A stretch of DNA of 28,850 nt from a virus. The notes beneath the pieces were generated by a model. It ran no database searches, was not told where the DNA came from, and saw only the letters and a program-made list of their open reading frames with translations. This document shows positions 5,183 through 26,355 of the stretch, piece after piece. Every line of letters begins with the position of its first letter. The first letter of the stretch is position 1. The translations under genes and the position numbers were made by a program. The stretch covers positions 1-28,850 of the IMG/VR virus record IMGVR_UViG_3300023116_003818. One strand, written 5' to 3'.

Positions 5183-5874
5183 AGCTTCTTGATCCTAAAA
5201 GATACATTACAACTCACTTACATGACAGAGATACTTATGCTACTATGGTGCACGAGTTTTTCAATCTCGACACGTACGGTTGGTGGTATCAAGTAAAGCC
5301 AGGTGATATTGTAATGGATATTGGTTCTTGCATTGGAATGTTTACTTGTAAAGCACTCGAACAGGGTGCTAAACATGTTTATTCAGTAGAACCAAACATT
5401 AAACTTCTTCACACTACTATGGTCAATGCTATGCCTGCTATCTCAAGATCGGCAGAGCAAAGAGTAACTCCTATTAATGCCTTCATCGGCCACTCAGATC
5501 ACGGGTTTGGTGTTAAAGGAGATGAAGCACCACATAAATCATTTAAAGAGATTATAGAAGAATACGAAATAGATCATCTTGATTTCTTAAAAGTTGATTG
5601 TGAAGGTGGTGAGTATGATATCTTTATGAAAGAAAACTATGACTTCTTATTCAATAAGGTACATCATATTGCTATGGAAGTACATCTTGACGTATATCCC
5701 GAAGCGCCCGAACGATTTATCAAGATGAGAGATAAATTTATACGAAGATGGCCAGGCCATATTCGGTTTTTAAAGTTAGAACATAGAAAGAAAACATGGG
5801 ACGACAACTACATAAGAGGAGACTGGCCAATAGGCTGGGGAAGCTCTTGGATGATCTATCTAACACGCATTTAA
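5179..5874 (+). CDS. FkbM-family methyltransferase
   Basis: This is a 231 aa SAM-dependent methyltransferase. Motif I is VMDIGSCIGMFTCKALEQG with the acidic end of strand 2 in YSVEPN. The FkbM hallmark LDFLKVDCEGGEYDIF is clear, and a later AMEVHLDVYP segment fits the family. FkbM proteins O-methylate sugars or small molecules, but the substrate here cannot be read from sequence. The ATG at 5179 overlaps the previous stop (ATGA); an upstream in-frame TTG at 5167 is less likely. It sits between gene 46 and gene 43, an accessory insertion in the replication core. Confidence 0.85.
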   Translation: MKLLDPKRYITTHLHDRDTYATMVHEFFNLDTYGWWYQVKPGDIVMDIGSCIGMFTCKALEQGAKHVYSVEPNIKLLHTTMVNAMPAISRSAEQRVTPINAFIGHSDHGFGVKGDEAPHKSFKEIIEEYEIDHLDFLKVDCEGGEYDIFMKENYDFLFNKVHHIAMEVHLDVYPEAPERFIKMRDKFIRRWPGHIRFLKLEHRKKTWDDNYIRGDWPIGWGSSWMIYLTRI

Positions 5875-5934: not shown

Positions 5935-8466
5935 ATGTCTAAATTCTATACATCAGTCGAACGCTTTATCAACGACATTCTAGTTCGTGGTTATGAAAAC
6001 GGCAGACCATTCCAACGCAAAGTCAAATTCAAGCCAACATTATATGTTCGTGCTCGTGATAACGCCACTCACAAATCATTGATTGGTGATGTGCCTCTCG
6101 GTGCTACTCGTTTCAATAGCATGATCGAAGCTCGTGATTTCATTACTCAATACAAAGATGTACATGGTTTCGATATCTGTGGCACTATGAATTACGTCAC
6201 TCAATTTATTCAAGAAGAATATCCTGGCGAGATCAATTTTGACATGTCTAAGATCAACATCTGTTCTTTTGACATCGAGGTTGATATCTCGAATGGATAT
6301 GCAGACATCAATACCGCTGACAAAGAAATCACTTCGATTGCATACAAATCTTCTAAGTCTAGTACATATCATCTTCTCGGTCGTAAAGATTTCGATAAGA
6401 CAAAAACAATTACAGGTATCAATCCAGACGATATATCGTTTATGAAGTTTGATACCGAGGTGGCACTGCTTGAAAGATTTATTCAGATCTGGCAGATGGA
6501 ATATCCCGAAGTTGTTACAGGTTGGAACGTCGAGTACTTCGACATCCAATATATTGTCACTCGAATCATTCGACTTATGGGTGAAGAAAAGGCTAAGAAG
6601 CTTTCGCCTTGGGGTCGTATCTCACCACACTCAATCACCAAATTTGGTAAAGAACAGAAATCATATATCATATCTGGCCTGACCATCATTGACTATATGG
6701 ATGCTTTCAAGAAGTTTGGTTACAAGTACGGTCCACAGGAATCTTATAAACTCGATCATATCGCCCATGTAGTACTCGGCGAGAAGAAATTGGACTACTC
6801 TGAATATGGAAATCTTAACGCACTTTATGAACAAAATCCTCAGTTATATCTTGATTATAACCTTAAGGATACTCAGCTCATTCAAAGAATGGAAGACGAA
6901 TCTGGACTTCTTTCGCTTGTACTTACTGTTGCTTATGGCGGTGGGGTTAACTTCAGCGATGCATTTGGTACAGTAGGAATTTGGGAAACAACAATATATC
7001 GCCGTTTGATGAAAGACAAAATTGTTCCACATCTTAAAGGTGGACCCGGCGAGCGAGCTGGTGAACTTGTCGGTGGTTATGTTAAAGATCCAAAAGTCGG
7101 CATGCATCCTTGGGTTGTATCGTTTGATTTGAACTCTCTGTATCCACACCTGATGCTACAATATAATCTATCTCCTGAAACTTATGTCGAAGGCGAACGT
7201 GAATATGTATCTCAAGAAATGGTACTCGACGGCTCATATCAAAACAAAACTGATTATGCAGTATGCGCAAACGGTGCATGTTTCCGTAAAGACAAACTCG
7301 GCATCATTCCTGAGATCATTGATGAATATTATAATCGTCGTTCTGGTATCAAGAAAGAAATGCTTGCAGTAGAACAAGCTATTGAGAATGAAACCGATCC
7401 TGCTAAGAAACGGCAACTTCAATCTCAACAAACACAGCTTCATAACAACCAGATGGCTATAAAAATTGCTATGAACTCTCTTTATGGCGCAACTGCTAAT
7501 ATCTACTTCCTCTACTATATTAACGATATGGCTGAAGCTATTACGACATCCGGTCAGCTTTCAATTCGTTATGCTCAAAAGTCCGTGAACGAGTATCTTA
7601 ACAAGATTCTCAAGACTGACGGTAAAGACTATATCATCTATATCGATACAGACAGTATCTATGTTGATTTTGGTCCTCTTGTTAAAGCTTCATTTGGTAC
7701 TGTTGACATCGATCGTAAGAAAGGTGAAGAATTCCTCGATAAGATCTGTAAGATGAAGATCGAGGAAGTAATCGAAAATGGTTATAAAGATCTTGCTTCG
7801 AAAATGGGTGCATATCGTCAAGCTATGGTAATGAAACGTGAAAAGATTACTGATAAGTCAGTATTCATTGCTAAGAAGCGTTACATCATGAATACTCTCA
7901 ACTCAGAAGGTGTTCATTATGAAACTCCAAAAATCTCTGTAACCGGCCTTGAATCTGTAAGATCATCAACACCGGAAGTCTGCCGTGATAAACTCAAAGA
8001 ATCGTTCAAGGTTATCATGAATGAAGGCGAAGAAGCAATCCAGCAATTCATTGCTCAATTCAAATCTGAGTTCTTTAATCTTCCACCAGAAGATGTTGGT
8101 CGTAACTCAGGTACTGATAACATCGAGAAGTATACAGTTCGTGGTACTTACAAGAAAGGTTGCCCAATGCATGTTCGTGGTTGCATCCTCTACAATAAGT
8201 ATCTCAAAGAAAATGGCCTGTCGAATCGTTATGAATCGATTACGTCAGGTGATAAGATTAAATTTGTATATCTCAAAGTACCGAATCCAATCAAAGAAAA
8301 TATCATATCGTTCCCAGCGGTTCTACCTAATGAATTCAATCTCAAACCGTATGTGGATTATGAAACTCAATTCAATAAAGTCTTCCTCAGTCCTCTTGAG
8401 TCTATTCTTGAAGCTCTCGGATGGTCTGCTGAGAAGACAAACACAATAGAGGATTTTTTCGCATGA
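5935..8466 (+). CDS. 43: Family B replicative DNA polymerase gp43
   Basis: This 843 aa B-family polymerase with 3'-5' exonuclease is slightly shorter than T4 gp43 (898 aa). The N-terminal [11 protein letters not shown] segment resembles T4. The exonuclease motifs are SFDIEVD (Asp113, Glu115), [13 protein letters not shown] and YNLKDTQLI. Polymerase motif A is SFDLNSLYP (Asp398), motif B is [10 protein letters not shown], and motif C is [10 protein letters not shown] (Asp571, Asp573). A KKRYIM motif follows. All catalytic carboxylates are present. The ATG at 5935 was preferred over a GTG two codons earlier because AGGTG lies at good distance. The next gene overlaps the stop by ATGA. Confidence 0.97.
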
Positions 8467-10654: not shown

Positions 10655-11620
10655 ATGGAACTACTCACATTGTGGAGCCTTGTCGGCTTCCTGCTTGCTG
10701 CATATGCGGTTATAGCGAACGATTCAGTGCAAACTCTCGGCACGTGGATGGCATCTAACAATGAGAGATTTAACTATAAAGTACTATGGGCAGCGGCTTC
10801 TGCTGTTCTTCTAGCAACACTCTGGTACGGTTGGAGTGTTAATGGTGGCGACATTAGTTATGGTCGTTTGAATAAGATCCCGTGGCAAGAAGTACAATGG
10901 TACCACGCCGCAGCACCAGCTATTCTTGTTGCTTTAACACGAATTGGTGTACCAGTTTCAACATCATTCTTAGTTCTATCAGTATTTGCTTCAACCTTTG
11001 TGTTGGAAAAAATGTTGATGAAATCTATTATGGGTTATGGCGTAGCAGCCTTATTTGCTTACGCAGTATGGTTTGCCATTAATAAGTTTGCTCATAAATG
11101 GTTTGATGAAACTCAACCAGTAAGTGAAGGCAATAAACGTTTTTGGCGGATTGCTCAGTGGGTTGCTACTGGCGGATTGTGGTGGACTTGGTTGTCACAT
11201 GACATGGCAAACATTGCGGTATTCCTCCCGCGTCAAGTACCTGTAGATCTTATGATTTTGATCTCATTTGTATTTGTCGGTGGTTTGTTCTTTATGTTTA
11301 GAGAACGTGGTGGTAAGATCCAACAAATCGTTTTGGAAAAACATAACACAAGATATGTTCGTTCAGCTACGTTGATTGACTTATTCTATTGGTTGTGTTT
11401 ATACTTCTTTAAAGAGCTAAACGATATTCCTATGAGTACAACTTGGGTATTCGTTGGTTTGCTAGCAGGTCGTGAACTTGCGATGGCTACATACTTTGGT
11501 AAGAAGAAAACAAAATCTGTATTTCCTCTTGTAGCGAAAGACTTTGGAAAGATGATGGTAGGACTTGGAGCTTCAGTTGCTCTTGTACTAATGGTACATT
11601 ACATTATCAATCCAGTGTGA
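10655..11620 (+). CDS. PiT-type inorganic phosphate permease-like membrane protein
   Basis: This 321 aa polytopic membrane protein shows the inverted duplication typical of PiT/PHO4 transporters. Each half has an Asn/His-Asp signature: ANDSVQTLGT at 21-30 and SHDMAN at 181-186. Each also has a Pro-x-Ser-Thr re-entrant signature: GVPVSTS at 98-104 and DIPMSTT at 257-263. About eight to ten hydrophobic segments are visible. PiT proteins import phosphate with Na+ or H+. The second half departs from the usual NDxxNA sequence. A good AAGGAG ribosome site precedes the ATG, and a second short hairpin (10618-10634) lies in the leader. Use during infection to support phosphate supply is inference. Confidence 0.7.
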   Translation: MELLTLWSLVGFLLAAYAVIANDSVQTLGTWMASNNERFNYKVLWAAASAVLLATLWYGWSVNGGDISYGRLNKIPWQEVQWYHAAAPAILVALTRIGVPVSTSFLVLSVFASTFVLEKMLMKSIMGYGVAALFAYAVWFAINKFAHKWFDETQPVSEGNKRFWRIAQWVATGGLWWTWLSHDMANIAVFLPRQVPVDLMILISFVFVGGLFFMFRERGGKIQQIVLEKHNTRYVRSATLIDLFYWLCLYFFKELNDIPMSTTWVFVGLLAGRELAMATYFGKKKTKSVFPLVAKDFGKMMVGLGASVALVLMVHYIINPV

Positions 11621-11655
11621 CATTTTTGTCAAGTAAAAAAATTTTACAGAAGGGG

Positions 11656-11684
11656 TTGACATTTAACTCCTTTTGTGTTATATA
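11656..11684 (+). promoter_or_regulatory. Sigma70-type promoter for the tmRNA gene
   Basis: TTGACA (11656-11661), 17 bp and TATATA (11679-11684). The predicted transcription start near 11691 coincides with the first part of the tmRNA acceptor piece. Confidence 0.8.
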
Positions 11685-11690
11685 TAAGAA

Positions 11691-11752
11691 GTGGACGTTG
11701 AAACAAAATAAAAACGGATCGGACCGCGGGGCAGTACCGCGCACCTCCACCA
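11691..11752 (+). ncRNA. ssrA: tmRNA acceptor piece (3' half, circularly permuted gene)
   Basis: This segment ends CACCTCC-A-CCA (11742-11752). CACCTCC pairs along all 7 bp with GGGGGTG at 11920-11926, with a G-U pair at the third position, the alanyl-tRNA synthetase identity element. Directly before it is a 5-bp T-stem, CGCGG/CCGCG (11725-11729 with 11737-11741), closing a 7-nt loop GGCAGTA that differs from the usual TTCRANY. The 3' half lies upstream of the 5' half, so the gene is circularly permuted as in alphaproteobacterial two-piece tmRNA. The 5' end is estimated from the promoter. Confidence 0.88.
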
Positions 11753-11770
11753 TAAACACATGAGGATATA

Positions 11771-11902
11771 ATGAATTGGGATTGGCACTGGATTAGTTGG
11801 TTTAAAGGAACACCTTTTCAATGGGGTGATTTTAGATTCAATAGTGGCAAGCCATATAAAAGTTATAGACTTGGACCATTACTTATTCGTGTGTTTATGT
11901 AA
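11771..11902 (+). CDS. 43-aa ORF in the tmRNA intervening segment
   Basis: An ATG with a GAGG ribosome site 5-6 nt upstream opens 43 codons within the spacer that joins the two tmRNA halves. The product begins MNWDWHWISWFKGTPFQWGD and is rich in Trp, Phe and Tyr, with a basic C-terminal half. If translated, the ORF would be read from the tmRNA precursor before processing. Small size makes chance possible, but the ribosome site and lack of stops argue for a gene. Confidence 0.5.
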   Translation: MNWDWHWISWFKGTPFQWGDFRFNSGKPYKSYRLGPLLIRVFM

Positions 11903-11919
11903 GCACATGTGTTTATGAT

Positions 11920-12090
11920 GGGGGTGAACAAGGATCGACGGACGGAATAGTTGAGTGGAGTTCACCGTGTTGACCTACGTTATTCGGTCAAACAAACTAA
12001 ATGCAAACGATAACTTTGCACCATCTGGTTACGCACTAGCTGCATAACACAGGGGGCTGGCCACTTGCCTAGCAACAGAAAAGTGGCACA
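11920..12090 (+). ncRNA. ssrA: tmRNA coding piece with proteolysis tag
   Basis: It starts GGGGGTG (acceptor-stem strand) and continues with GGATCGACGG, close to the conserved GGATTCGACGG of tmRNA. A 6-bp TTGACC/GGTCAA helix (11970-11975 with 11986-11991) fits the region of pseudoknot 1. The resume codon GCA is at 12003, and the tag frame runs to TAA at 12045-12047, giving ANDNFAPSGYALAA. The ALAA end is the classical ClpXP/ClpAP signal. Downstream, GCCACTT/AAGTGGC (12060-12066 with 12081-12087) forms a 3' helix. The RNA rescues stalled ribosomes and tags their products. The 3' end is approximate, and I could not resolve the helix joining the two pieces by eye. Confidence 0.9.
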
Positions 12091-12126
12091 TAACACATTT
12101 AATAAAAGTAATAAGAAAGGGACAGG

Positions 12127-12906
12127 ATGTTTAATAAACTACTAATTACAACAGCATTGGTCTGCGCAGCAGGCTCAGCAATGGCCGCAGACGTTGGCGG
12201 TGAAATTACAACTGAGATTGCAGAAAACGCAGCAGGCAACTGGGGTGCAACAACATCCTTCGACCTAGGTATCGCATCAATGGGTACAGCAGTACCTGCA
12301 TTTGCTGCTATTGATTTGGACATGAACACAGACGGTGATATTACCCTTGATGAATGGCAAATTGGTACAGTAGTAAATGGAGATGCAATGATCTCATTCG
12401 GAGATCAAGGTAATGTTTGGATCGATTCAGAAGACGGTTCAACATTGGCAGATCCAGCCATGAAAGAATCTATTGCAGTTAAAGCCCTTGGAGCAAAAAT
12501 GGGTATTAGCTGGAAAGATATCGAAGCGGATGTAACAGAAATCGAAACAGTAGCCGGTATGTACGAAATGAATCTTGGTCTTGTTAATCTACAAGCCGCA
12601 GGTTCATACAACATGGTTACTGAAAACTTTGCGATTGGTTCTCGCAGTGATTATCTGTTGAACGACAATATTGGTCTTGGTGCTGCAATCACTTATGATT
12701 CAGGATCAGAAGATATTGGTTTTGAAGTAGATGCTGGCGCTTACGGTGCTACAGTATTCGTAAACGGCGATCAGGATGAAATGCTTCAAAACGTAGGTGG
12801 TTCTTACACTTACGGCTTCATCGGGCTTGAGCTCGAAGCAGGAGCGTCATACAACCTAGACAGCGAAGAATTGACACCTACTGCATCTGTTTCGTTCAGC
12901 TTCTAA
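12127..12906 (+). CDS. Exported outer-membrane beta-barrel (porin-like) protein
   Basis: This 259 aa protein has a clear signal peptide (MFNKLLITTALVCAAGSAMA, predicted cleavage after residue 20). The mature part alternates polar and hydrophobic residues in many short strands and ends in ASVSFSF; a C-terminal Phe is the outer-membrane insertion signal. It resembles small alphaproteobacterial porin-like barrels. Residues 65-76 match the EF-hand loop pattern (DMNTDGDITLDE) and may bind Ca2+. It follows the tmRNA without an obvious promoter of its own and ends at a strong hairpin. Possible roles are surface change, superinfection exclusion or nutrient entry; none is shown. Confidence 0.75.
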   Translation: MFNKLLITTALVCAAGSAMAADVGGEITTEIAENAAGNWGATTSFDLGIASMGTAVPAFAAIDLDMNTDGDITLDEWQIGTVVNGDAMISFGDQGNVWIDSEDGSTLADPAMKESIAVKALGAKMGISWKDIEADVTEIETVAGMYEMNLGLVNLQAAGSYNMVTENFAIGSRSDYLLNDNIGLGAAITYDSGSEDIGFEVDAGAYGATVFVNGDQDEMLQNVGGSYTYGFIGLELEAGASYNLDSEELTPTASVSFSF

Positions 12907-13006: not shown

Positions 13007-13558
13007 ATGTCACTAAAATTGAAAGAGCTTACATGGGCTCACCACCAATCTGCTGAACGGCGTAAGTTCGCTAAACATCTTATTAGCGGCAAAATTGAGC
13101 CTAAACTCTATCACAAATTTTTATGTTGCCAGTACTTAAACTATGAAGCACTGGAATCTAAAGTAATCATTCCCCCAAATTTACAACCAATTAAAAGGTC
13201 CAATCGCATTTGGACTGATATTCGTGAGCTTGAAAACGAATATGGATTAGAGCCAGATGGTAACTATCCGCCTTCTGTAGAGAAGTACACCAATCATATA
13301 CATGCACTTGCGGAGTGGGATGCTAACGACAGACTGTTGGCTCATATGTACGTAAGACATTTTGGTGAACTACATGGCGGGCAGATCATCAAAAAGAAAG
13401 TGCCTGGCTCAGGCAAGATGTATGAGTTTGAAGGAGATACTAAGATCCTTATTGAGGAATTCCGCAAACTCTTGCATGATGATATGGCAGATGAAGCTAA
13501 GATCTGTTTTGACTTTGCATCAGAGTTATTTGATGAGTTGTCTGAAGAAATTAGTTGA
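13007..13558 (+). CDS. ho1: Heme oxygenase (HO-1 family)
   Basis: This 183 aa all-helical protein should cleave heme to biliverdin IXalpha, CO and Fe2+ using reduced ferredoxin or another reductant. The proximal heme ligand is expected at His13 in HHQSAE (family pattern HxxAE). The distal helix motif is GELHGGQ at 120-126, against GDLSGGQ in HO-1, so the catalytic Asp is replaced by Glu121. A GGAGG ribosome site sets the start at 13007, and a late promoter lies upstream. It is shorter than typical HO (about 230 aa). Together with the bilin reductase at 13936 it forms a heme-to-bilin pathway. Confidence 0.9.
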   Translation: MSLKLKELTWAHHQSAERRKFAKHLISGKIEPKLYHKFLCCQYLNYEALESKVIIPPNLQPIKRSNRIWTDIRELENEYGLEPDGNYPPSVEKYTNHIHALAEWDANDRLLAHMYVRHFGELHGGQIIKKKVPGSGKMYEFEGDTKILIEEFRKLLHDDMADEAKICFDFASELFDELSEEIS

Positions 13559-14978: not shown

Positions 14979-15623
14979 ATGGCTTTCTTAGTTCACCCTT
15001 TGCCACCTGTTAATGTTTATGTACGAAAAGAATACTTGTATGATTTAGAGAAGGGGCACGGTGAATATACTCCAGGAATCTGGATTAGTGTTAAAAGCAC
15101 AATGCACAAAGCTCTTTATTTCGAAACACTCTTAACTGATTATGGAGCGCTATATGACAAACTTCCTATATCGGCATTTGTTTGGAAAATACCGCACGGC
15201 GAGATTCTTCCGCTTGATGTGCTACAGCTTTGGGATTGTTTTGATTACGACATTACCGTTGTCCAAAAACCCATCTTGTCTAGATGTGAATTTTTTGGAA
15301 AGGACAAACGTATGCATGCCGGTGAGTATGAGTTCACCATCGATAATTGTCACCGCGATTCTTCCATCATCGACACAAATTTCAGTGAACACGACCCCGA
15401 ACACAAGTCTTTCAACGTTATACGACTTGACAACGGTCAATTCGCTGCTCAGCCTAACAATCGGGTTATCTGGCGTGATAGCTCCTTAACTCCTGATAAA
15501 CTATTACGTCCTGACTTTAAAGTATGCACTCAAAACTATGCGGTTGAAACAGAACCTAAATGGTCTGTTGGCCACACTGATGAATGGCAATATAAAACTA
15601 AGGAAGAAAGCGAAATGGAATGA
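14979..15623 (+). CDS. Conserved hypothetical marine phage protein
   Basis: This 214 aa protein starts MAFLVHPLPPVNVYVRKEYL, a beginning I associate with conserved hypothetical proteins of T4-like cyanophages. It contains several short strands and a WKIPHGEILPLDVLQLWDCF segment. No catalytic motif is recognised. It overlaps the IscA-like gene by ATGA. Confidence 0.75.
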   Translation: MAFLVHPLPPVNVYVRKEYLYDLEKGHGEYTPGIWISVKSTMHKALYFETLLTDYGALYDKLPISAFVWKIPHGEILPLDVLQLWDCFDYDITVVQKPILSRCEFFGKDKRMHAGEYEFTIDNCHRDSSIIDTNFSEHDPEHKSFNVIRLDNGQFAAQPNNRVIWRDSSLTPDKLLRPDFKVCTQNYAVETEPKWSVGHTDEWQYKTKEESEME

Positions 15624-15904
15624 TATTAACTATTACGGAAAATGCTAAAGCTTATCTAAAAAAGGTTGGCAAACCTAACGTATCACTTACGGTAAAAGGT
15701 GGAGGCTGTTCTGGTTTTCAATATGAGTGGGGAACCACGGAAGAAAGTCCAACTATTGAAAATTTATGGTTAGATCCAATGGCTGAAATGTTTGTTTTTG
15801 GCTGCACAATAGATTATGTGGAAGAGCTTGGTGGTTCTTATTTAAAAGTAATTAACCCTAATGCCACTGCTTCATGTGGCTGCGGAGAAAGTTTTGCTGT
15901 CTAG
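15620..15904 (+). CDS. IscA/SufA-type Fe-S cluster carrier
   Basis: This 94 aa A-type carrier has the three conserved cysteines in GGGCSGF (Cys30) and SCGCGESF (Cys86, Cys88). Such proteins bind Fe-S clusters and deliver them to apo-proteins. It is a little shorter than bacterial IscA (about 107 aa). It sits downstream of heme oxygenase and the bilin reductase; both pathways touch iron and ferredoxin, so a shared role is possible but not shown. Confidence 0.9.
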   Translation: MILTITENAKAYLKKVGKPNVSLTVKGGGCSGFQYEWGTTEESPTIENLWLDPMAEMFVFGCTIDYVEELGGSYLKVINPNATASCGCGESFAV

Positions 15905-24294: not shown

Positions 24295-24942
24295 ATGTAC
24301 ATACCTAAATTTAATTCTTATTTCATTCATATACCTAAGTGTGGTGGTTCTTCTATAGAGCAATACTTCTTTAATCTAGATGGACTATATCCTAATATGG
24401 AAAACGTATTTGGATCTCTTGGTAGGGAAGTAGGAAGTAAGTATCATTTTGGTAATTATGTACGTGGACTTCAACATTCAGAAACTCAGCATCTGAGTGT
24501 ATGGGATTGCAGAAGATATCAAGTAAACGATTTTTTAAACTCAAATTATAAGTTTGCTTTTGTAAGAAATCCTTGGCATCGATTTGTATCCGAGGTTCAT
24601 TGGAAAAGAAAGCATTTGCGCATGACAAATCACTCATTCCAGGATCAAATAGAAATGCAAAAGCGTTTCGCCGATAATAACCTAAGCAACAATCTTAGGC
24701 CTCACAACACTCCCCAATGGAAATTTGTATTCAATGAAGAAGGTAAGCTTGCCGTTGATGACGTATTCAAATTAGAAGAAATAGATAAAGCTGAAAAGAG
24801 ACTATCAGAGGTATTCGGGGTAGAAGTAAAATTTCCGCATGTAAATAAAACAGAAAAGAAAAATTACGAAATCGATCAAGGAATAAAAAATCAACTTCTT
24901 CCTTTGATCAAAACAGATTTGGAGGTATTCGGATATGAATAA
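24295..24942 (+). CDS. Sulfotransferase-family protein
   Basis: This 215 aa protein has the two PAPS-binding signatures: the 5'-phosphosulfate loop FIHIPKCGGSS at 10-20 and the 3'-phosphate segment FVRNPWHRFVSEV starting at Phe89. Such enzymes move sulfate from PAPS to sugars or other acceptors. It is the first gene of a three-gene block with two glycosyltransferases (8 nt overlap), suggesting modification of a glycan. The target, host surface or virion, is unknown. Confidence 0.85.
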   Translation: MYIPKFNSYFIHIPKCGGSSIEQYFFNLDGLYPNMENVFGSLGREVGSKYHFGNYVRGLQHSETQHLSVWDCRRYQVNDFLNSNYKFAFVRNPWHRFVSEVHWKRKHLRMTNHSFQDQIEMQKRFADNNLSNNLRPHNTPQWKFVFNEEGKLAVDDVFKLEEIDKAEKRLSEVFGVEVKFPHVNKTEKKNYEIDQGIKNQLLPLIKTDLEVFGYE

Positions 24943-25636
24943 AACTATCTGGATGTACTGGCACGACGGGTTTGAAAACTCACCAGCAATTACTCAAGAA
25001 TGTTTAAAGAGTTGGAAGAAATGGAATCCTGATTATGAAGTGGTTGAATTGAATAATGAAAATTTAAAAGATTATATTGATTATCCAATTGCTCAGCCAA
25101 AATCGCTAGCAGCAAGATCTGATATTATAAGAATTAATTTACTTAAAGAGCACGGTGGTATCTGGTCAGATGCTACCGTTTTATGTAATAGGCCGTTGAA
25201 GGAATGGGTGCATATGTATGATAAACAAGGATTCTGGGCCTTCTCAGATCCTACACCAGCCAATATGATATGCAGTTGGTTTCTCGTAGGTGATAAAGAT
25301 AACCATATAGTTAAAACCTTCTGTGATGAAGTCAATAAATATTGGGACAACGGTAGACAAAAGCCAGATGTGTATCTTTGGTTTCATGGTATATTCGATC
25401 ATCTATTTCATGTTGATCCGATATTTAAAGATCAATGGGTACTAGCTTCTAAGTATAAAGCTAACTGGCAGCCAATGGCAAAGGATGGAACAAATCCACA
25501 TTACTTTGCACCTTATATAAAGGAAAGATTAGATCAACTACCATTTAAAGACATGACGGCTCCTCTTTACAAATTAACAAGAGGCCAGTCTAATATGTTA
25601 ATGAACAACAAACTGATAAAGGGATTATTGATATGA
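24935..25636 (+). CDS. Capsular-polysaccharide-type glycosyltransferase
   Basis: This 233 aa protein begins with an IWMYWHDGFENSP segment. The catalytic region is ARSDIIRINLLKEHGGIWSDAT (Gly74 onward, Asp79), the capsular polysaccharide synthesis/GT32-like pattern in which the WSDAT acidic residue binds metal-nucleotide sugar. It overlaps both neighbours by a few bases. Substrate unknown. Confidence 0.8.
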   Translation: MNKTIWMYWHDGFENSPAITQECLKSWKKWNPDYEVVELNNENLKDYIDYPIAQPKSLAARSDIIRINLLKEHGGIWSDATVLCNRPLKEWVHMYDKQGFWAFSDPTPANMICSWFLVGDKDNHIVKTFCDEVNKYWDNGRQKPDVYLWFHGIFDHLFHVDPIFKDQWVLASKYKANWQPMAKDGTNPHYFAPYIKERLDQLPFKDMTAPLYKLTRGQSNMLMNNKLIKGLLI

Positions 25637-26355
25637 AGGTTGAAAAGACCTATATTGTGAGAATTGACACCGAGATGTCAAAACGTTACGCAGCAGATAC
25701 TGCAAAGTCGTGTGACAATCTCGGTATTGAATGGGAATATTATGATGGCTATAACGTAAGAACTGGCCAGCAAGAAATCTATCAATGGCAAAACTTTGCA
25801 GAGACTGCAGGAGTTAGAGTTGAAAAAGTAAAACGCATGCAGCCAGGCGCTGCCGGTTGCACTATGAGCCATCTTGCTTTGTGGAAAAAGATTGCTGATA
25901 ATCATGAATGTGCTGTAATCTTAGAACATGATGCTATAATGCTTCATCCATTGACATTGGATATTCCAGATGGTAAGATTATCCATATGGGTTATAAGTA
26001 TCCAGACTATGAAAAATATAATGCGAAGGTAGCTGGTCCTCCCAAACGTATTGTTGATATGGCGTTTGCTCCTGGTTCTCATGCCTATGCACTTACTTGG
26101 AGAACTGCTCAGAAACTCGTACAAGATTGTGAGAGGGAAGGTATTACAGAAGCAATTGATAATCGACACTTTATGCATACAAGAGCAAACTATACAAAGG
26201 TTCCTATTGCTATGACTGATCCAATTTGTGCTATGGGATGGTTAAGAGATTCTACTATCTGGGGTAGAAGTGCAATTCATAACAACACTGGTCAAATGTT
26301 AGAATCATTCAAGACCAACTTTGCGGCATCGGTAATGCCTCATGATTATAAATAG
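25633..26355 (+). CDS. Glycosyltransferase family 25-like protein
   Basis: This 240 aa protein has the GT25/LPS-type signatures GCTMSHLALWKKI (from Gly75) and AVILEHDA (Glu98-Asp100), then PGSHAYALTWRTAQKLV. GT25 enzymes transfer galactose or related sugars in LPS and glycan synthesis. The last codons TAT-AAA-TAG form a late promoter for the next gene. Confidence 0.82.
   Translation: MKVEKTYIVRIDTEMSKRYAADTAKSCDNLGIEWEYYDGYNVRTGQQEIYQWQNFAETAGVRVEKVKRMQPGAAGCTMSHLALWKKIADNHECAVILEHDAIMLHPLTLDIPDGKIIHMGYKYPDYEKYNAKVAGPPKRIVDMAFAPGSHAYALTWRTAQKLVQDCEREGITEAIDNRHFMHTRANYTKVPIAMTDPICAMGWLRDSTIWGRSAIHNNTGQMLESFKTNFAASVMPHDYK
26347..26354 (+). promoter_or_regulatory. Late promoter built into the GT25 stop
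   Basis: Exact TATAAATA across the Tyr-Lys-stop codons, 34 nt upstream of the long final ORF. Confidence 0.75.

Follow-up and report, generated by a model that had tools for sequence, protein, structure and literature searches.

The spacers of permuted tmRNA genes, which separate the two halves of the gene, are usually treated as discarded RNA. We examined a tmRNA gene of this type in a stretch of viral DNA, together with the spacer between its halves. The stretch (hereafter the window) is an IMG/VR virus record of 28,850 bp, IMGVR_UViG_3300023116_003818. An earlier note on this DNA had recognized the tmRNA but overlooked a nested, mobile protein gene between its halves. We find that the locus is very probably a phage permuted tmRNA gene whose spacer was colonized by an unrelated small protein gene, the spacer being swapped between phages as a cassette.

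A permuted two-piece tmRNA gene in a T4-like phage

We compared the window with Rfam 15 using cmscan and found exactly two matches, both full length and on the plus strand: tmRNA_permuted (RF04321) at 11691-12047, with 117.6 bits against a gathering threshold of 47 (E 1.2e-22), and alpha_tmRNA (RF01849) at 11652-12090, with 105.7 bits against a threshold of 50 (E 3.6e-28). ARAGORN independently calls a tmRNA* at 11660-12138 with the tag ANDNFAPSGYALAA. The permuted two-piece tmRNA that had been proposed at 11691-12090 is thus borne out by the Rfam models, the alphaproteobacterial one included, and by ARAGORN. The halves lie in swapped order, with a T arm and CCA in the upstream half (Table 1), the exact mature 5' end of which is taken from the model. 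The 3' strand of the acceptor stem, CACCUCC (11742-11748), is followed by the discriminator base A (11749) and CCA (11750-11752) and pairs at seven of seven positions with the 5' strand GGGGGUG (11920-11926). Here, the third pair is G11922-U11746, and the perfect 7-bp stem with G3-U70 described in the earlier note can be read directly off the sequence. Pairing also holds in related phages, where it is kept by compensating changes (CGCCTCC/GGGGGCG, CGACTCC/GGGGTCG and CAGCTCC/GGGGCTG); among 35 relatives that carry the spacer gene orf43 described below, the stem has seven of seven pairs in 34 and six of seven in one. The residues of the tag are encoded at 12003-12044 and end in an ordinary, hydrophobic ALAA directly before the stop codon, and the tag and stop reported earlier agree with those of ARAGORN. 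Judged by their models, both halves are intact, and the gene appears to be a phage permuted tmRNA gene of the working type.

Table 1. Coordinates of the features discussed; window positions unless a locus is named
Feature	Position	Strand	Details and basis
Sigma70-like promoter of the tmRNA transcript	11656..11684	+	TTGACA 11656-11661, 17 nt, TATATA 11679-11684
Acceptor half	11691..11752	+	T arm, acceptor-stem 3' strand, CCA; RF04321 starts at 11691, RF01849 at 11652
Spacer between the halves, 167 nt	11753..11919	+	Predicted to be removed during processing; exchangeable cassette
Left arm of helix extending the acceptor stem in the precursor	11753..11761	+	MFE fold of 11691-12090
Shine-Dalgarno of orf43, GAGGA	11762..11766	+	Sequence; 4 nt before ATG
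orf43, 43 codons and TAA: MNWDWHWISWFKGTPFQWGDFRFNSGKPYKSYRLGPLLIRVFM	11771..11902	+	pN/pS; homologues inside and outside tmRNA genes
Right arm of extending helix, with the junction to the coding half (ATGTGTTTATGAT)	11907..11919	+	MFE fold
Coding half	11920..12090	+	5' acceptor strand 11920-11926, pseudoknot region, tag, 3' hairpin; ARAGORN and Rfam
Tag reading frame ANDNFAPSGYALAA and TAA	12003..12047	+	Stop TAA 12045-12047; sequence and ARAGORN
Hairpin with conserved loop	12060-12087		Within the coding half
Next gene, 259-aa protein	12127..12906	+	Outer-membrane-like by eye; no Pfam match
MKNPLVKK... family	L092, L113, L278, L282, L284, L285, L292, L293, L296, L297, L309/L079, L257/L286		
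DUF2061-like small membrane protein	L094 5735-6283; L105 about 6550-6780; L300 1327-1521; L042 564-758		

The gene has a promoter of its own, as had been claimed (TTGACA-N17-TATATA). It is missing from the list of a generic scanner because the scanner requires a T at position 6 of the -10 element. Of 103 distinct viral permuted tmRNAs, 75 are preceded by the pattern TTGAC-N15-19-TAWA, as opposed to 1.9 in shuffled sequences, and TATAAATA, which we take to be the T4 late -10 motif, is present in 59 of these 103 upstream regions (1.95 expected). The window has TATATAAG in its place. Neither element was found in any of 51 bacterial tmRNA upstream regions. The TTGAC-type promoter and TATAAATA may perhaps provide early plus late-type expression of viral tmRNAs. 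In the predicted minimum free energy fold of the window precursor (11691-12090; z -2.7) the two ends of the spacer form a helix. A spacer-end stem of at least 7 bp is predicted for 98% of 93 distinct viral spacers and for 28% when ends are swapped between loci; the corresponding values for 22 bacterial spacers are 32% and 11%. In the models, viral spacer ends pair together and lengthen the acceptor stem.

That the gene is phage-borne, as stated in the earlier note, is borne out by the virus record itself, which holds a T4-like replication module on the plus strand (helicase, sigma factor, gp46/47-like, DNA polymerase, RecA-like and DnaB-like proteins, as read from the ORF list). A 321-aa hydrophobic protein is encoded directly upstream of the tmRNA (10655-11617; no Pfam or PHROG match, transporter-like by eye), and no terminator-like site is listed between 12090 and 12127. 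The window also contains host-like genes for a heme oxygenase (13007-13555), an Fe-S assembly protein (15620-15901), an FkbM methyltransferase (5185-5871), and a sulfotransferase with two glycosyltransferases (24295-26352). A search for SmpB in the window and 11 related viral records, fragments included, yielded none, so that SmpB from the host would be needed. The tmRNA may replace host rescue or redirect tagged proteins, as the earlier note proposed.

The permuted gene order had been taken as a strong sign of an alphaproteobacterial host, a claim that finds no support in that form. According to the accessible text of PMC9004378, permuted tmRNA genes are found in Betaproteobacteria and Cyanobacteria too, and the phage Melnitz, which infects an OM43 methylotroph, carries an alpha-type tmRNA. 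Gene order is a weak basis for assigning the host. The exact tag is present in none of 55 bacterial tmRNA* calls. We also scanned contigs for ANDNFAP-(1 to 3 aa)-ALAA and obtained nine matches, all in alphaproteobacterial MAGs (mostly Hyphomicrobiales, one Micavibrio), and rejected this route as it revealed no obvious host.

A small protein gene between the tmRNA halves

The spacer contains an open reading frame of 43 codons, orf43, the Shine-Dalgarno sequence of which is unchanged in most of the close loci that we inspected. Across 20 distinct nucleotide versions, pN/pS is 0.17 in frame compared with 3.25 and 1.58 in the other frames, and the variable columns number 5, 8, and 22 at codon positions 1, 2, and 3, respectively. 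With in-frame purifying selection and with homologues in other contexts, orf43 evolves, on the sequence evidence, as a protein gene. The cassette leader and ends are also conserved, and part of the conservation may thus lie at the RNA or DNA level.

We retrieved 64 related viral loci with an orf43 profile, 43 of them close, and parsed all close ones except the truncated L365. In 35 of these 42 loci, from 34 IMG datasets, orf43 lies inside the spacer of a permuted tmRNA. It is free-standing, outside a tmRNA, in four loci (L339, L344, L349, and L355), and it is found beside tmRNA remnants or a second tmRNA in L359, L366, and L367. In the free-standing copies of L339 (two), L344, and L355, the common sequence starts exactly at the start codon and the 5' flanks differ, while L349 retains the cassette leader. 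In L344 and L355 the first bases of the tmRNA coding half are still fused to the reading frame, and these copies thus look like escapees from a tmRNA. The two copies of L339 (about 1690-1820 and 2501-2647) flank a thyX-like gene, and the second is followed by a purM-like gene, both named by eye. In L359, an acceptor half with orf43 is followed at a distance of about 540 nt by a complete tmRNA. In L366 (1-729), orf43 has a tRNA-like remnant beside it and immediately precedes a further tmRNA, whose tag, ANDNFKPELSFDFDGVLEAA, is odd.

Distant homologues in other phages share 45-54% identity and the common motif W..RFNSGNPYxSYRxGPLxIR, and in L302/L388 the homologue lies directly upstream of the tmRNA. 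The protein itself has no match in Pfam or PHROGs, and a profile search of the PDB sequence set gave antibody chains alone, at E about 0.6. In tblastn searches of 50,697 phage records nothing convincing was found with orf43 (best E 5), nor in the phage collection with two of its distant homologues and two other spacer ORFs; a weak cyanophage match falls in an unannotated gap. One marginal match of the orf43 profile among 385 alphaproteobacterial genomes was rejected because of an internal stop. The AlphaFold model of orf43 is of low confidence (pLDDT 63.8, pTM 0.31).

We next place orf43 among viral and bacterial spacers in general. Pattern scans of viral contigs for permuted tmRNAs covered at least 120 stretches in one scan and 99 in another; the patterns skipped 10 ARAGORN tmRNA* calls in one parse, and 8 of 165 could not be resolved in another. 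In the spacer-ORF census this applied to 1 of 129 viral and 0 of 55 bacterial calls. Among 104 distinct viral spacers, sampled without regard to spacer content, 19 contain an ATG-initiated ORF of at least 30 aa, compared with 3.2 expected from dinucleotide shuffling, a comparison that overstates the excess as 12 of the 19 belong to one family and the independent evidence amounts to six families. These are orf43, the MKNP/MKNR family, a DUF2061-like family, and single ORFs in L024, L035, and L045. Spacers with orf43 are a minority, 3 of the 104. The 12 spacers of the MKNP- or MKNR-starting family encode proteins of 38/44 aa with a pN/pS of 0.31, and the stop codon of the MKNPLVKK... family is located one base before the coding half. 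The DUF2061-like ORF has 68 aa and a TTG start, and its Pfam match (E 1.8e-4) falls just under the cut-off. L094 and L105 carry it within the spacer; in L300 and L042, homologues of about 60% identity are ordinary genes immediately upstream of the tmRNA. Two families, DUF2061-like and orf43, therefore occupy the same two positions, beside and inside a tmRNA. None of 52 distinct alphaproteobacterial spacers has an ATG ORF of at least 30 aa (0.17 expected), a weak contrast given that these spacers are short, with a median of 36 nt versus 78.5 nt in viruses. The bacterial set is also non-random and comprises the 30 best-scoring loci, 20 picked mostly for length and nine tag-pattern loci.

Exchange of the spacer between tmRNA genes

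The evidence on selection and mobility comes from metagenome contigs, and for mobility we compared the histories of spacers and flanks. The 35 spacer-borne loci contain 21 distinct pairs of halves. Compared pairwise, the spacers of these 21 average 95% identity, as opposed to 76% on the acceptor side (70 nt up to and including CCA) and 74% over the initial 130 nt of the coding half. This comparison excludes L359, L366, and L367, which have no intact coding half after the ORF, as well as L339, L344, L349, and L355, where orf43 is outside a tmRNA. The sister phages L208, L129, and L212 have halves resembling those of the window (79-98% identity for the acceptor and 91-95% for the coding half) and spacers unrelated to its own. 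The window and L208 are 98% identical up to 11760 and 96% identical from 11908, and the 92-nt spacer of L208 is unrelated and lacks orf43. L129 matches the window at 61 of 62 positions in the acceptor half and 162 of 171 in the coding half, and at 44 of 85 in the spacer. In both cases homology breaks at about 11760 and resumes at 11908. That near-identical sister phages lack orf43, with homology breaking at the spacer, argues that the spacer was exchanged as a cassette.

The reverse pattern is also found. The window and L329, which is on the same contig as L230, have spacers of 98% identity over 147 nt, while their coding halves are 62% identical. L230 aligns with the window at 95% over 11721-11907 and otherwise only over 91 nt in the tag region (11999-12089, 89%). 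As the tag regions are fairly alike, exchanges are apparently not always confined to the spacer. In L334/L124 an acceptor half of the window type is joined to another coding half and one acceptor pair is missing, the picture that a recombinant should give. As far as such comparisons tell, the spacer with orf43 moves independently of the halves from one tmRNA gene to another, among phages that have diverged.

It is conceivable that the window holds an ordinary phage permuted tmRNA with a chance ORF, and that the spacer owes its conservation solely to its role as RNA or to recent shared ancestry. Spacers indeed vary widely, 85 of the 104 distinct viral ones have no ATG ORF of 30 aa, a 43-aa ORF in the window spacer alone has a p of about 0.03 by shuffling, and pairing of the spacer ends lengthens the acceptor stem. 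This explanation is, however, strongly contradicted by the sequences at hand, and we consider it very improbable: orf43 is under in-frame purifying selection, copies standing free among other genes start right at the initiation codon, the protein is conserved at about 50% identity in phages with a homologue outside the tmRNA, and spacer and flank histories disagree. The cassette could instead be selfish, an intron-like or homing element with tmRNA spacers as its target, and its presence in many such spacers and a few other sites, with conserved termini, would fit. We regard this as improbable, since the Rfam scan of the window revealed no intron or other non-tmRNA RNA, orf43 has no endonuclease domain in Pfam or PHROGs, and removal of a permuted spacer needs no splicing. 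Moreover, unrelated ORFs hold the same position in other phages, which fits homologous recombination.

Our preferred explanation remains a permuted tmRNA with a colonized, exchangeable spacer. One promoter would produce a precursor consisting of acceptor half, spacer with orf43, and coding half. Host tRNA-processing enzymes would then free the two-piece tmRNA, with RNase P cutting at 11919/11920 and 3' processing at 11752/11753. Most likely, this tmRNA and host SmpB would tag stalled peptides for host proteolysis. orf43 would be translated from the precursor or from the excised spacer to yield a 43-residue protein. The cassette may move between co-infecting phages by recombination through conserved flanking tmRNA sequences, namely the T arm/CCA/UAAACAC on one side and GUGUUUAUGAUGGGGG on the other. 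The tmRNA could serve as landing site, promoter, and vehicle for orf43.

Stop codon geometry and relation to known systems

In 29 of the 35 spacer loci the first in-frame stop of orf43 lies inside the mature coding half, at a depth of 10 nt in 28 loci and 22 nt in one, so that 43 whole codons plus 2 nt precede the expected cut. Cutting out the tmRNA would consequently remove the stop codon. In the window and in six of the 35 loci (L325-L328, which are near-copies of the window, and L329 and L335), the stop instead follows codon 43 directly, within the spacer, and these seven copies point to a functional 43-residue protein in all loci. The geometry of the 29 loci suggests a tmRNA-dependent switch, which would add to our preferred explanation rather than replace it. 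Maturation of the tmRNA may strip orf43 of its stop, and the stalled product may be tagged by the same tmRNA and destroyed, a possibility that we put forward tentatively. Equally tentatively, orf43 may build up only where tmRNA maturation or trans-translation falls short. We take orf43 to be unlike ArfA in appearance. There is nonetheless a precedent in ArfA, which according to the available part of PMC8012679 is regulated through a nonstop mRNA and, as the 29 relatives may be, is a small protein with an mRNA that loses its stop by RNA processing. The likeness is drawn from stop geometry, not sequence, and differs for the window, where orf43 has its own stop. The arrangement is also not required, as the window and the six loci demonstrate, and the in-frame UAG lies in GCGAANUAGG, a conserved stretch of the tmRNA, and perhaps serves just because it is at hand. 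A further reading, which we find rather doubtful, is that the precursor doubles as the orf43 mRNA with coupled products: as the stop of orf43 is lost with the cut that yields the tmRNA, each transcript in most carriers would give either mature tmRNA or a stop-bearing message, never both, and orf43 would possibly be a rescue back-up or modulator destroyed by its own tmRNA.

We compared the locus to tmRNA systems for which descriptions exist. Phage permuted tmRNAs are already in print. The accessible text of PMC9004378 counts 133 unique phage tmRNAs, 53 of which have a two-piece structure; of these 53, 50 come from marine or aquatic phages. It also describes the permuted tmRNA of the methylophage Melnitz in detail; the database of PMC11915505 holds 79 phage tmRNAs, as stated in its available sections. 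When the window locus was compared with 50,697 phage records, only four Melnitz records matched (71.6% over 139 nt). Like the window, Melnitz is a marine T4-like phage with a permuted alpha-type tmRNA (PMC9004378, in part), but its 142-nt spacer has no ORF of at least 20 aa, and the accessible text of that paper reports a glutamine riboswitch and mentions no gene between the halves. Alphaproteobacterial permuted tmRNAs (RF01849, RF04321; PMC11915505, available sections) share the architecture, the acceptor stem, and the ALAA tag end, and differ in their shorter spacers without comparable ORFs. Intron-form tmRNAs with homing endonuclease genes likewise carry a protein gene within a tmRNA gene, but there it is located in a splicing group I intron (PMC11915505, available sections), whereas the window has a permuted spacer and neither intron nor endonuclease domain. 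In the open-licence PMC literature we found no report of a protein gene in a permuted-tmRNA spacer.

These findings together indicate that phage spacers hold several unrelated small protein genes, one of which moves between the tmRNA genes of diverged phages, and that a non-coding RNA gene can thus be a carrier and exchange point for protein genes. They reveal small phage proteins that annotation skips because the ORF sits inside an RNA gene, and they show how phage tmRNAs get shuffled. If the coupled reading were true, phage permuted tmRNAs would have in their spacer a mobile site that carries genes. Why phages carry tmRNA becomes testable, and part of the answer may be the cargo of the tmRNA gene.
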